From: Pseudothermotoga elfii DSM 9442 = NBRC 107921
GTDB lineage: Bacteria; Thermotogota; Thermotogae; Thermotogales; DSM-5069
Length of the DNA stretch: 64,000 bases
Assembly (NCBI RefSeq): GCF_000504085.1
Contig: NC_022792.1
Coordinates: forward strand, 930,001-994,000
Reading direction: 5' to 3'
Each line of letters begins with the position of its first letter. Position 1 is the first letter of the stretch. Shown here in pieces: positions 42,733 through 47,112 of the stretch. Under the pieces are notes generated by a model. It saw nothing but the letters and a program-made list of their open reading frames with translations, was not told the DNA's origin and did not search any database. The translations under genes and the position numbers were made by a program.

Positions 42733-44073
42733 TCATTTTTTTGTCTGATCGTGCGATTTGCAGAATGAGATTAGAGAGTCGTAGAAATTTTTTATTTCTT
42801 CGTCATTGAGTTTCTTTCTCCCGTATTTCGTTTTTACATAAATACTGGTCAACATTGATAAATTTTTGTCGCCTTCTATATCTAATATTTCATGGGGTGT
42901 TTTGCTGTGATACTGTGCAAAATACTTTCTCCTTAACCACCAGTAAGCTTTGAGAATGGATCTTTTATCAAATTCGAGTGGTGGGGTGTTTTCAAAAATA
43001 TGTTGTTCTTGTTCATCACCCTTTTTTTGATTAAGAACTTCTTTTTTTCTCAAGATTCTTGCCGAGTAGATCACTGCTATTATCATTAGAGACAAAACAG
43101 CGACGCTTACAACATTCAAAAAAGGGATAATGTTTACTCTGTTTGAAAACATTTTTTCTCTCTGAGTTACAACCGTTGTTGCCGGTGCTGTGTAAATAGA
43201 TTGTTGATCATTAACAATTGAATTTCTATGTAAGATCATTTGATCGGCATTTCTCTCAACTGGTTTAACAAATGAGAGTGATATTGACAGAGCTGTTATT
43301 ATGATTAAAAAAGTTGCTGCACCAGTGAGAAACAACTTTATCGTTCCACTTATTCCAAAATTGTTCAGGGCAAAACTTATAAGAAAAATCCCGAAAATGA
43401 TCAGAACAGATGGAAACCATATTTTTTCCAGTATCTCTGAAAATTTATCTTTTGGCACATTTTTATCGGTAGATTTGTCCGGGCGAACGACTGTTACATA
43501 ATTTCCTTCTCCAGGTAAATTTTCACTTTTTCTCATCTTCTCACTGTGAAGGTTGTTTTGATCAAATACTGGTTTCAAAAGAGAGAAATTCACATCGGGC
43601 ACGATTGTTGATGCAATCAGGACTATCAGCAGATAGACAACTATGAGCCGGATTCTACATTTTTTTGTCTTGTGCAGATACCACAGAAAAGTCAGGACTG
43701 CAAAGAATAATGAATCAAACCTGACGCCGTGCGATCCGGCCATGCTCAGGTATATTCCTACAGTCAGCAGTGAAATAAATGATGGGACGGTATATTTAGA
43801 AAAGATCAAAGCTGCACACTCCACAATTATTAGAATTAAGAATGCTTGTGAGAAGCCAAGTTTTGCAATACCTGCAACCACGAAACTTGCTATTAAAACA
43901 AATGGCGAAACTATCACCAAAGAGCAATTTTCATCCGAGAGAAATAGAACCAGAATAGATGAAAAAACAGTCAGAGGCAGGCTGAACCATAACGGCAGAA
44001 ATGCACTGAGTAAATAAAAAGATGTTATTCCAGCACCGAAAATAGTAAATTGCCTAAGATCTTTGAATCTCAT
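42733..44073 (-). CDS. Membrane protein with DUF4129-like C-terminus
   Basis: A 446-residue membrane protein: about six N-terminal helices in residues 8-160, a long extracytoplasmic loop (about 165-215), more helices near 220-265 and 315-340, then a cytoplasmic tail. The tail (FDKRSILKAYWWLRRKY, SKTPHEIL, YVKTKYGRKKLNDEEIKNFY) resembles the DUF4129 domain found beside MoxR-DUF58 genes. No transglutaminase domain is present. It is the last gene of the riboswitch-led operon and overlaps the DUF58 gene by 20 bases. Confidence 0.75.
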   Translation of the reverse strand: MRFKDLRQFTIFGAGITSFYLLSAFLPLWFSLPLTVFSSILVLFLSDENCSLVIVSPFVLIASFVVAGIAKLGFSQAFLILIIVECAALIFSKYTVPSFISLLTVGIYLSMAGSHGVRFDSLFFAVLTFLWYLHKTKKCRIRLIVVYLLIVLIASTIVPDVNFSLLKPVFDQNNLHSEKMRKSENLPGEGNYVTVVRPDKSTDKNVPKDKFSEILEKIWFPSVLIIFGIFLISFALNNFGISGTIKLFLTGAATFLIIITALSISLSFVKPVERNADQMILHRNSIVNDQQSIYTAPATTVVTQREKMFSNRVNIIPFLNVVSVAVLSLMIIAVIYSARILRKKEVLNQKKGDEQEQHIFENTPPLEFDKRSILKAYWWLRRKYFAQYHSKTPHEILDIEGDKNLSMLTSIYVKTKYGRKKLNDEEIKNFYDSLISFCKSHDQTKK

Positions 44074-45334
44074 CGAAAACCTCCTGAAGGCTCTGATTTG
44101 GTCTAATTATTCTAACAATTATTTGCTCCTTCTCGAGGATTTTTGCTTTTTCTATAAGTTTTTGCATATCCAGTGGGTACATCTCATATGTTTTCGCTGG
44201 TTTAAACCTGGGATCTCTAAAACCATATGGAATTAACAGAACGATAACTCTTGCACATCTGGTTCTTGCTTGAATCAGTAGTGGCAAAAGTGTATCTGTA
44301 AGATACATCGAAATTATTAGAATTGTGTTGGAAGGCGTCAATCTGTACAAATCTTTGAAAAATTCTTCTGATAATTGCGGACCATTCTCATCTCCTTCAG
44401 CTTTTGCTAAAAGCTCAACAGCACTCACCCAGTCAGAATTCACCATGTAATTTCTTCTCAAGACTTCTTTGCCAACCACTACGAGATCTATAAGGTTACC
44501 TCTATTGGCGAGCAGATATATTATCGATGAGGTTGCGATTACAGCGTCTTCTTCGTAATTTTTTCTAATCTGCGCCCATACTTTTCTGGCAAAAATCTCC
44601 GACGATAGATTCAAATCAAGGTACAGAACTGTGTTGCTTATAGCGGTGTAATCCAGTTCTTTTACGCACAATTTTCCAAGTTTTGCAGAAATTTTCCAGT
44701 GTATTTTGCTGAGAGGTTCGTTGAAGTATTCTCGAACACCTTTTATCTGAGTGGTATCCTCAAGCAGTTTGAATTCTGACCTCTCAGCTGGAAGAAGCTC
44801 CCTCAATCTGGATGGAAAGCTTTCTATATACATAATCTTTGGCAAAACAAGTATTTCTTCTTTGCCTGAATAACACGCGTAATGCCTGAATAAATTTATG
44901 GGGTGTTCGTAGAGAACAAAAAAGTCAGATAGAATTTTTTTGCCACGGGTTGGAAAAGAAATTTTTGACTGGACATATACTGATTCTGATTTTCTTATTA
45001 ACAGTGTTTTTTCAAAAAGATTGTACGTCAAAAAACCTGACGTCGTGACGTGTGAAGAAATGGAGGCATCTATATCACCAAACGGGCTTTGAATCCTATG
45101 ATTGATCGTCAAATCCTGGTCTGTAAAAGCCCGTGTCTGGTTCACCCACCTTTCAATTTCAAGATGTGTCAATTTTCTTTTTGTATCATAAAATTGTAGC
45201 CACAGAAAAATGCAGGCAATAACAAGAGTAATTGAAAATACATTGAAACTGAGCAGCGCCCAGACGCATGACAAAATACTCATAAAAATAAGAAGACCAA
45301 ATGAAGATGACTTTGATTTAAGTTTGAGCTTCAC
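44054..45334 (-). CDS. DUF58 domain protein (MoxR-associated)
   Basis: About 426 residues. Two N-terminal membrane helices are followed by a soluble part with the DUF58 core RGVREYFNEPLSKIHWKISAK (written across the KxxREY-x-IHW pattern). A VWA-like region comes next (NTVLYLDLNLSS, NTILIISMYLTD). DUF58 proteins pair with MoxR ATPases in envelope or complex-assembly systems. The start chosen is GTG at 45334, 12 bases from GAGGAGG; an ATG at 45370 would lie 53 bases inside MoxR. Confidence 0.82.
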   Translation of the reverse strand: MKLKLKSKSSSFGLLIFMSILSCVWALLSFNVFSITLVIACIFLWLQFYDTKRKLTHLEIERWVNQTRAFTDQDLTINHRIQSPFGDIDASISSHVTTSGFLTYNLFEKTLLIRKSESVYVQSKISFPTRGKKILSDFFVLYEHPINLFRHYACYSGKEEILVLPKIMYIESFPSRLRELLPAERSEFKLLEDTTQIKGVREYFNEPLSKIHWKISAKLGKLCVKELDYTAISNTVLYLDLNLSSEIFARKVWAQIRKNYEEDAVIATSSIIYLLANRGNLIDLVVVGKEVLRRNYMVNSDWVSAVELLAKAEGDENGPQLSEEFFKDLYRLTPSNTILIISMYLTDTLLPLLIQARTRCARVIVLLIPYGFRDPRFKPAKTYEMYPLDMQKLIEKAKILEKEQIIVRIIRPNQSLQEVFDEIQRS

Positions 45335-46268
45335 TTTTAATAGGGGCCTCCTCGGTGTTGAGTATTTCATTCAGGATTTCCTGCTTTGTTTTTTTCATCA
45401 GCCTCGCTTCCGGTTTCAAAACTATGCGGTGTGCAAGAACATCCACCGACAGTTCTTTGATATCGTCCGGTAGCACATACTCTCTTCCCCTGAGAGCAGC
45501 GAGTCCCCGCGAAATATTCATAAGCGATATAGCGCCTCTCGGACTTGCACCTAAAGCAAGATCATCGTGATTTCTGGTTCGTTCAACAATTCTGACTATG
45601 TAATCCAGTATGGAATCGTCTATATAAATTTCTTTAGTTTTCTTCTTGGCTTCTTCGAGTTCTGTTAAATTGCTCACAGGTTTGATATTTTCTATTGGAT
45701 GAGACATCTCTTGCTTTTTCAACATTTCTATTTCCTGGGATTTATCGAGATAACCAATGGATAAGCAAATAGAAAAACGATCCAGTTGAGCTTCAGGTAA
45801 GGGAAAAGTTCCTTCAAATTCGACAGGATTTTGCGTTGCAATAACGAAGAAATGTTCACTCAGCTGATAGGTAATACCATCCACAGTTACTTGCTTTTCC
45901 GCCATTGCCTGTAGCAGGGCAGATTGAGTTCTTGGTGTGGTTCTGTTAATCTCATCCACGAGCAAGATATCAGTGAAGACTGGTCCTTTTCTAAAAACAA
46001 ATTCATTCAATTTTGTATCAAGTACATTCAGACCTGTTACATCTGACGGAAGAAGATCCGGGGTCGCTTGAATTCTGTTGAAGCTCAAACCAGTCGAGAT
46101 GGCTAAGGCTCTTGCTAACATTGTTTTGCCGACTCCCGGGACATCATTCAAAAGCACATGACCGCCACTCAACATTGTGGCCAGTATCTTTTCAACGATT
46201 TTTTCTTTTCCTACGATGACTCTGGAAATGTTTGTGATTACCTTTTTGGCAAAAACCTCCATAACCAT
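45318..46268 (-). CDS. MoxR-family AAA+ ATPase
   Basis: A 316-residue AAA+ chaperone-like ATPase. Walker A is LLNDVPGVGKTMLARALA, Walker B ILLVDEINRTTPRTQSALLQ (canonical MoxR), sensor I FVIATQNPVEFEGTFPLPEAQLDRF. C-terminal: ASPRGAISLMNISRGLAALRGR. It probably remodels a partner complex with the DUF58 and DUF4129-like products. Start ATG at 46268 is 7 bases after GGAGGA, overlapping the DUF6062-like gene by 31 bases. Confidence 0.92.
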   Translation of the reverse strand: MVMEVFAKKVITNISRVIVGKEKIVEKILATMLSGGHVLLNDVPGVGKTMLARALAISTGLSFNRIQATPDLLPSDVTGLNVLDTKLNEFVFRKGPVFTDILLVDEINRTTPRTQSALLQAMAEKQVTVDGITYQLSEHFFVIATQNPVEFEGTFPLPEAQLDRFSICLSIGYLDKSQEIEMLKKQEMSHPIENIKPVSNLTELEEAKKKTKEIYIDDSILDYIVRIVERTRNHDDLALGASPRGAISLMNISRGLAALRGREYVLPDDIKELSVDVLAHRIVLKPEARLMKKTKQEILNEILNTEEAPIKSEAQT

Positions 46269-46915
46269 AGTCTGTTCCTCCCGTCTTGAATTCTGTTATT
46301 GGATATCAACATTCCTGCAATCTTACATGCCCTCGGTGTATCTCCCATTTGCTTGTCTTTTCTGTAATCGTGTTTTTCTATAAAAACAGTCAGTTTGCTC
46401 TTCAAATCCAGAAGTTTTTTTACTTGAATAGCTTTTAAATTTTCTTGATTGATATGATTTGTCGTTGAGAAAATTTTCCAGTAGTGGTCTCTACATAAAA
46501 TACGTTTACTTTTCTCGTATATGGATAATATATCTGATATAAATGAAGTGCATGTTTCAACATAAATTTTTTCTGATTCTGACTCATGTTTGCAAAACAA
46601 ACATTCACTTTCAGTATGACAGTTTTTCACCATATCTTTTATCATTTCAGACATGATATCTTCATAGATTATTGCTAAGCCAAGTAATCCAAGCTCTGGG
46701 TGGTTATTAAGGGTGTTTTCAATAGCCAGAACATGTTTACTGCAGATACCACGCCTCAGTCTGGATCTTGTATTTGGATCGTTTACGAATTCATACAGGA
46801 TTTCTTCTACGAACTTCTCGACACTGGTGTAGATTAACTCACAGATAGGACAATCATCTGTTTGCTTTTCGAATGCCTCGATTATTTTTATTTCAGCAAA
46901 ATTTCTCGGGTTCAC
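46238..46915 (-). CDS. Cysteine-rich DUF6062-like protein, first gene after the fluoride riboswitch
   Basis: A 225-residue soluble protein with paired metal-binding motifs: CPICEL at about 22, a CSKH at about 58, CLFC at about 106 and CRDH at about 140. The pattern, two C-x2-C plus two C-x2-H, suggests two zinc-like sites and resembles DUF6062. No function is known to me. The start is GTG at 46915 behind TTGGAGGAA. The riboswitch terminator ends about 17 bases upstream, so this gene and the MoxR operon behind it are the direct riboswitch targets. Confidence 0.7.
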   Translation of the reverse strand: MNPRNFAEIKIIEAFEKQTDDCPICELIYTSVEKFVEEILYEFVNDPNTRSRLRRGICSKHVLAIENTLNNHPELGLLGLAIIYEDIMSEMIKDMVKNCHTESECLFCKHESESEKIYVETCTSFISDILSIYEKSKRILCRDHYWKIFSTTNHINQENLKAIQVKKLLDLKSKLTVFIEKHDYRKDKQMGDTPRACKIAGMLISNNRIQDGRNRLWLWRFLPKR

Positions 46916-46932
46916 AAAGATTCCTCCAAAAT

Positions 46933-46958
46933 AAAAAACCCCTACTCATTCAAGTAGG
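46933..46958 (-). terminator. Riboswitch-controlled terminator
   Basis: Minus strand: CCTACT (46958-46953), loop TGAATG-like, AGTAGG (46946-46941), GG, then six T. The 5' arm overlaps the aptamer pseudoknot, the expected ON-type expression platform. Confidence 0.85.
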
Positions 46959-47000
46959 AGTCATCAGCCTTTAAGGCAAATAACGGTGGACTCCATCACC
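46953..47000 (-). promoter_or_regulatory. Fluoride riboswitch (crcB RNA) aptamer
   Basis: Minus-strand RNA with all core parts of the crcB motif. Stem GGTG (47000-46997) pairs with CACC (46988-46985). The enclosed loop GGAGTC (46994-46989) is exactly complementary to GACTCC (46962-46957), the aptamer pseudoknot. A short GCC/GGC hairpin (46977-46975 with 46969-46967) and the invariant GCTGATG follow. The joining region reads GTTATTT, a little unlike the usual AAC. The last CC of the pseudoknot is also the start of a terminator stem, so ligand binding should favour read-through. Confidence 0.85.
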
Positions 47001-47038
47001 AGGCTTATTCATATCCTGAACTCTTCAAACACAGTATT

Positions 47039-47047: not shown

Positions 47048-47112
47048 CAAACCGCGGGCCCTTCATCACCGTGTTTTTATCAGTTCCTGTTTTAATATTT
47101 TTGAAGAATATA

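Follow-up and report, generated by a model that had tools for sequence, protein, structure and literature searches.

Current understanding of fluoride resistance rests almost wholly on export and on overproduction of the enzymes that fluoride inhibits. A locus on the minus strand of the genome of the heat-loving bacterium Pseudothermotoga elfii DSM 9442 = NBRC 107921 (NC_022792.1) raises the question of what a fluoride riboswitch controls when the genes behind it include no recognised exporter. The stretch analysed, a 64,000-nucleotide window (positions 930,001 to 994,000 of the contig; all coordinates below are those of the window), carries such a switch ahead of genes for a DUF6062 protein, a MoxR-family ATPase, a DUF58-like protein and a DUF4129-like membrane protein. 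The explanation that we favour, an ON switch driving an operon of four genes, none of them a known exporter, with a role in fluoride stress, is reasonably probable when taken as a whole.

Riboswitch and leader

An earlier note on this DNA had proposed a crcB-type aptamer whose pseudoknot shares bases with a terminator, and both proposals were borne out. RF01734 matched the minus strand at 46948-47009 over the full length of the model (positions 1-64 of 64), scoring 51.8 bits where the gathering threshold is 34, with an E value of 1.8e-11 for the window as a whole, and this was the sole match above the cut-off across the 2.17-Mb single-contig genome; our own model R1 and covariation in relatives identified the same aptamer. 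P1 is formed by GGTG/CACC (47000-46997 with 46988-46985), the pseudoknot by GGAGTC/GACTCC (46994-46989 with 46962-46957) and P2 by GCC/GGC (46977-46975 with 46969-46967), and the GCTGATG sequence is present. Across 32 relatives, 98.1% of cells in the aptamer helices were paired, against 88.9% in shuffles, two-sided changes fell in 49 cells, against 12.5 in shuffles, and 9 of the 13 pairs showed such changes. The switch RNA itself is an ordinary member of the RF01734 family.

An intrinsic terminator of 11 pairs followed by a T run occupies 46937..46962 on the same strand, in a region with 2 terminator-like sites where 0.2 were expected. The expression platform, read from 46962 to 46937, is built on the pseudoknot: the 5′ arm of the terminator is the 3′ pseudoknot strand GACTCC, and through this common strand terminator and aptamer are, by sequence, mutually exclusive. 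The location first given for the element (46933-47000) stood, with its limits shifted slightly to those of the aptamer and terminator above. An aptamer-overlapping terminator was also found at all 14 DUF6062-led and 8 of 11 MoxR-led switches, compared with a few per cent of shuffled tails. In its aptamer, pseudoknot and terminator logic the element resembles the described fluoride riboswitch (crcB motif, RF01734); on the model of that family, from which the response to fluoride is taken, binding of Mg-fluoride would stabilise the pseudoknot and block the terminator, allowing the four genes to be transcribed.

The first gene has an RBS, GGAGG, at 46923..46927 (-) and starts with GTG at 46915, 22 bases from the terminator stem. 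A consensus promoter scan of the leader region found none. Located 5′ of the aptamer, at window 47051-47070 (-), GGTGATGAAGGGCCCGCGGT looks like the 5′ half of another aptamer, lacks a 3′ half and an Rfam match, and is perhaps a chance resemblance or a remnant.

Operon genes and their proteins

The first gene (46238..46915, -) encodes a DUF6062 protein of 225 aa, matched by PF19538 with 45.1 bits (cut-off 27). It contains two CxxC...CxxH modules and a C-terminal K-x-DYR, and the 18 invariant columns of a 14-sequence alignment include both CxxC...CxxH sets and K-x-DY. Because its N- and C-terminal halves align to each other (94.6% probability), the protein is a duplicated zinc-site-like module. 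It is soluble by hydropathy, and its predicted model is all-helical and confident (pLDDT 86); a PDB fold search with this model gave no match, every E being above 1, and comparison of the family profile with PDB sequences gave nothing credible.

The second gene (45318..46268, -) overlaps the first and encodes a canonical MoxR-family AAA+ ATPase, with Walker A GVGKT, Walker B LLVDE, AAA_3 (PF07726, 203 bits) and AAA_lid_2 (PF17863, 88 bits), whose nearest solved structure is 2r44. The third product (44054..45370, -) is a degenerate VWA-type protein with two N-terminal membrane helices by hydropathy and an IHWK-type DUF58 motif. It scored 18.8 bits against DUF58 (PF01882), below the cut-off of 23.4, and an orthologue passed with 25.3, so that by its profile score it is best described as a divergent relative and not a formal DUF58 member. 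In place of the canonical MIDAS DxSxS, as sought for the CbbQO type, it reads DLNLS, and every switch-linked DUF58 sequence in the alignment has DxN for DxS.

The fourth product (42733..44073, -) is a polytopic membrane protein with a TgpA-like layout lacking the transglutaminase domain. It has no Pfam match; its Thermotogota orthologues reach 17-20 bits against DUF4129 (cut-off 24.8), and a Bacillota protein in the same position reaches 45 bits. The alignment (A4) has an invariant T-P-x-E, and its invariant residues sit in the C-terminal domain; the predicted model, which shows 7 helices at the N terminus and others besides, was too weak for a fold search (pLDDT 67, pTM 0.39). Of the gene assignments made earlier, DUF6062 and MoxR were thus confirmed by Pfam, the DUF58 assignment remained sub-threshold, and the DUF4129-like one drew on weak matches of orthologues and on the Bacillota counterpart.

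The four genes are consecutive and their ends overlap, so they likely share one transcript; regulation of the operon by the fluoride switch is almost certain. PADLOC found no matches to defence families.

Fluoride exporters in the host genome

CrcB (PF02537) had no match in the host genome at E 0.1, a search that succeeded in 10 of 14 control genomes. The single CLC of the genome carries both GSGIP and GREGP and aligns best with structures of ClcA, a Cl-/H+ exchanger. A CLC-F would be expected to lack these chloride-type motifs, and the host CLC was rejected as a fluoride exporter on its motifs and PDB match. With CrcB absent and the sole CLC ClcA-like, the genome sequence reveals no known fluoride exporter, in agreement with the earlier note, which had seen none near the switch.

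Switch targets in Thermotogota

In a sample of 103 Thermotogota genomes, RF01734 was found in 48, DUF6062 in 46 and CrcB in 43, and 62 switches were inspected with their neighbours. Their targets, checked by Pfam except for enolase, which was assigned from sequence, comprise MoxR-DUF58-DUF4129-like operons, DUF6062, a MutS-domain pair, hydrogenase-like operons, Na+/H+ antiporters and enolase. None of the 62 leads CrcB; the general statement that these switches usually control Fluc/CrcB holds in our Bacillota sample and fails in Thermotogota.

The pairing seen in the window was sought in other Thermotogae and recurs in about 20 of the 103 genomes: in 19 genomes of four families, and in one more (G013) by coordinates, a switch leads MoxR-DUF58-DUF4129-like genes, preceded by DUF6062 in some and lacking it in others. 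The complete order, switch-DUF6062-MoxR-DUF58-DUF4129-like, is found also in the host's genus, in two more genera belonging to the same family, and in family f9, and MoxR is led directly by the switch in G056, in G004 and in family f8 (G008-G012, G014, G016, G017). Two f8 genomes, G014 and G016, have a second, separate switch before DUF6062 elsewhere, and since the two halves are separately switched there, each belongs to the fluoride regulon independently. Genomes of family f11 have a switch followed by DUF6062 without MoxR.

Operons without a detectable switch also exist. Two close relatives, G058 and G060 (L126, L127), retain DUF6062-MoxR-DUF58-DUF4129 with a MATE-like gene close upstream and no detectable switch, and MoxR-DUF58-DUF4129 operons lacking one occur in Thermotoga-, Fervidobacterium- and Mesotoga-like genomes; because of such operons, the MoxR machine is not fluoride-specific in general. 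In G043 a CrcB-DUF190-MoxR-DUF58-membrane protein gene run lies on one strand with short gaps (L159:6100-10436), again with no detectable switch, and in three congeners CrcB or DUF190 adjoins the MoxR operon. CrcB was rarer in genomes with a switch-led MoxR (2 of 19, against 41 of 84 others; Fisher p 0.002, relatedness uncorrected), a scarcity that is only suggestive, with few clades behind it.

The pairing in other phyla

When GTDB contigs were scanned with the DUF6062 alignment, 80 loci were obtained, and 70 of these belong to phyla other than Thermotogota. A covariance model from the Thermotogota switches matched 17 times among these 70, and a retrained model (R2), which is partly circular in that it was built with those 17, gave 24 matches, and 19 of these sit on the same strand as a DUF6062 gene, no more than 1.2 kb upstream of it; about 1.3 were expected (binomial tail 3e-20, kinship among loci ignored). 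The unmodified Rfam model exceeded its own cut-off at L178 (Omnitrophota), L189 (UBP3), L194 (Aerophobetes), L220 (Chthonomonadales), L205, L182, L193 (Chloroflexota), L210 and L211.

The Bacillota sample consisted of 299 genomes searched with RF01734, in which roughly 70-85 switches were inspected. Single genomes have switch-CrcB-DUF190-DUF6062 (G161/L294; CrcB from sequence and a tblastn match), switch-DUF6062-CrcB (G376/L351) and switch-DUF6062-Na+/H+ antiporter-UspA-like (G264/L349). MoxR was found at only one of the inspected Bacillota switches, in G362 (L345:1474-6186), where CrcB-DUF190-switch-73-aa ORF-MoxR-DUF58-DUF4129 run in one direction, as confirmed by Pfam and Rfam; this locus is the clearest tie between the AAA+ operon and a fluoride exporter. 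In an Anaerolineales locus (L195) DUF6062 is followed by enolase and preceded by a weak switch (20.4 bits, retrained model R2 only).

Because the pairing recurs across Thermotogota and other phyla, fluoride regulation of the gene set is strongly supported, and the suggestion in the earlier note that DUF6062-MoxR-DUF58 may be an undescribed fluoride-responsive system is upheld. Comparative genomics shows the set to be a repeated part of the fluoride regulon, whether arranged as a single operon, split into units with a switch each, or placed next to CrcB. On these sequence comparisons it is highly likely to be a genuine fluoride-regulon module, and the DUF6062, MoxR, DUF58 and DUF4129-like genes very probably make up a module for fluoride stress that has gone unnoticed; the set probably protects against fluoride.

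Relation to known systems

Known RF01734 targets are crcB, CLC-F, mutS, FHL, enolase, pyrophosphatase and Na+/H+ antiporter genes, whereas here the switch leads DUF6062-MoxR-DUF58-DUF4129-like genes. MoxR, DUF58 and DUF6062 are unnamed among the switch-controlled genes in the accessible portions of PMC2864571, PMC11139923 and PMC5533749, and Baker et al. (2012) may list them in their supplement. The literature search returned no paper on DUF6062 and none pairing a fluoride riboswitch with DUF58; for a fluoride riboswitch and MoxR it returned only a Megasphaera genome paper, which names each separately.

The Enterobacter cloacae FRM operon, ppaC-uspA-eno-gpmA-crcB-orf5249, is likewise a switch-led multigene fluoride operon, for which PMC5533749 gives experimental support for a contribution by non-exporter genes. 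Its genes as named there include no MoxR, DUF58 or DUF6062, and the operon in the window has no exporter and none of the FRM enzymes.

A MoxR ATPase next to a VWA-type partner recalls the rubisco activase CbbQ/CbbO, which remodels inhibited rubisco (PMC4660213) and offers a possible parallel in the release of a tight inhibitor; here, in contrast, the partner is a DUF58 protein with membrane helices and no canonical MIDAS, and an additional membrane protein and DUF6062 are present. The MoxR + VWA pairs NorQ/NorD and RavA/ViaA are similar in composition and act as chaperones on membrane metalloenzymes, the first inserting iron into cNOR (PMC9976466) and the second modulating fumarate reductase (PMC10585395); the literature searched contained no report of either with a fluoride switch.

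Function of the operon

From these parallels, the membrane-anchored DUF58 and DUF4129-like proteins could combine with MoxR into an AAA+ remodelling machine, CbbQ/CbbO- or NorQ/NorD-like in kind, with DUF6062 as its zinc-site adaptor, and such a machine might restore proteins jammed or damaged by fluoride, whether Mg-phosphate enzymes or envelope complexes. By analogy, a rescue mechanism of this type is the possibility that we prefer and put forward tentatively. Counting against the favoured explanation are the Thermotogota operons without a switch, the missing canonical MIDAS of the DUF58 members, the single MoxR among the Bacillota switches inspected and the failure of DUF6062 to match a solved fold. 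The most specific form of the rescue mechanism, in which DUF6062 and MoxR-DUF58-DUF4129 are a non-export fluoride-resistance machine, a fluoride-induced AAA+ 'activase' freeing fluoride-locked Mg-phosphate enzymes or membrane complexes, is rather doubtful; if true, it would allow the host's Thermotogota lineage to live without any known fluoride channel. A conserved switch-controlled AAA+/zinc-site set in exporter-less organisms would add a third strategy of fluoride resistance. It would also offer a first clue to what DUF6062 does, and a physiological cue for the DUF58-type MoxR operon, whose chaperone group is widespread but little understood.

The best-surviving alternative, which we nevertheless regard as unlikely, is that the four genes make up a TgpA/DUF58-like AAA+ system for envelope maintenance or general stress, induced by fluoride through membrane damage from HF and acidification and without action on fluoride-inhibited enzymes. 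The DUF58 and DUF4129-like proteins are indeed predicted membrane proteins, copies of the operon without a switch exist in Thermotogota, and fluoride stress is linked to pH homeostasis, Na+/H+ antiporters being the next most common switch genes (PMC11139923); however, DUF6062 is soluble by hydropathy and is separately switched, and neighbours such as CrcB and enolase point to fluoride itself, not to generic stress.

A second alternative would make the DUF4129-like polytopic protein, energised by MoxR, an unrecognised exporter in place of CrcB. The lack of CrcB and of a CLC-F-like CLC in the host, and the scarcity of CrcB beside switch-led MoxR, are what such a replacement would predict, but that scarcity traces to few clades, two genomes possess both CrcB and a switch-led MoxR, and CrcB-DUF190-MoxR-DUF58 occur together. 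The membrane part of the protein is moreover poorly conserved, its invariant residues being in the C-terminal domain, and it shows a weak relationship to DUF4129/TgpA-type proteins and none to transporters, which leaves an exporter role very unlikely.

That the switch is a positional accident or the remnant of a lost crcB, uninformative about the operon genes, is almost certainly wrong: loss of CrcB is conceivable in principle given the switch-CrcB-DUF190-DUF6062 order of one Bacillota genome, and G058 and G060 keep the operon without a switch, but the pairing is kept over Thermotogota families and other phyla with overlapping terminators retained, and a CrcB between switch and operon, the loss of which the earlier note had raised, was found in no relative (0 of 62 switches), so that the vestigial reading was rejected on this conservation and the Bacillota arrangement strengthens, and does not weaken, the link to fluoride.

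Other genes in switch operons

Outside Thermotogota, dynamin-like GTPase genes (GQFKRGKST motif) were seen in switch operons with DUF6062 in Caldisericaceae and Bacillota (L211, L349, L350), and two Anaerolineales loci (L186:7228-8660 and L205:7235-8711) have a switch, a phosphoglycerate-mutase-like gene and DUF6062; gpmA is also present in the E. cloacae fluoride operon (PMC5533749).

Within Thermotogota, many switches (L054, L049, L057, L062 and others, including one in G092) lead an adjacent pair of MutS-domain-V proteins of about 500 aa each. Switches of family f8 (L060, L072, L112, L122) lead hydrogenase/complex-I-like operons, where an apparent RBS block, in which TAGGAGG can pair with the pseudoknot strand, would operate without use of a terminator; in some f8 genomes this switch diverges from a second one before the MutS pair. 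In G041 and G039 (L070, L069) a switch precedes enolase, and in G041 the MutS-like pair comes next.
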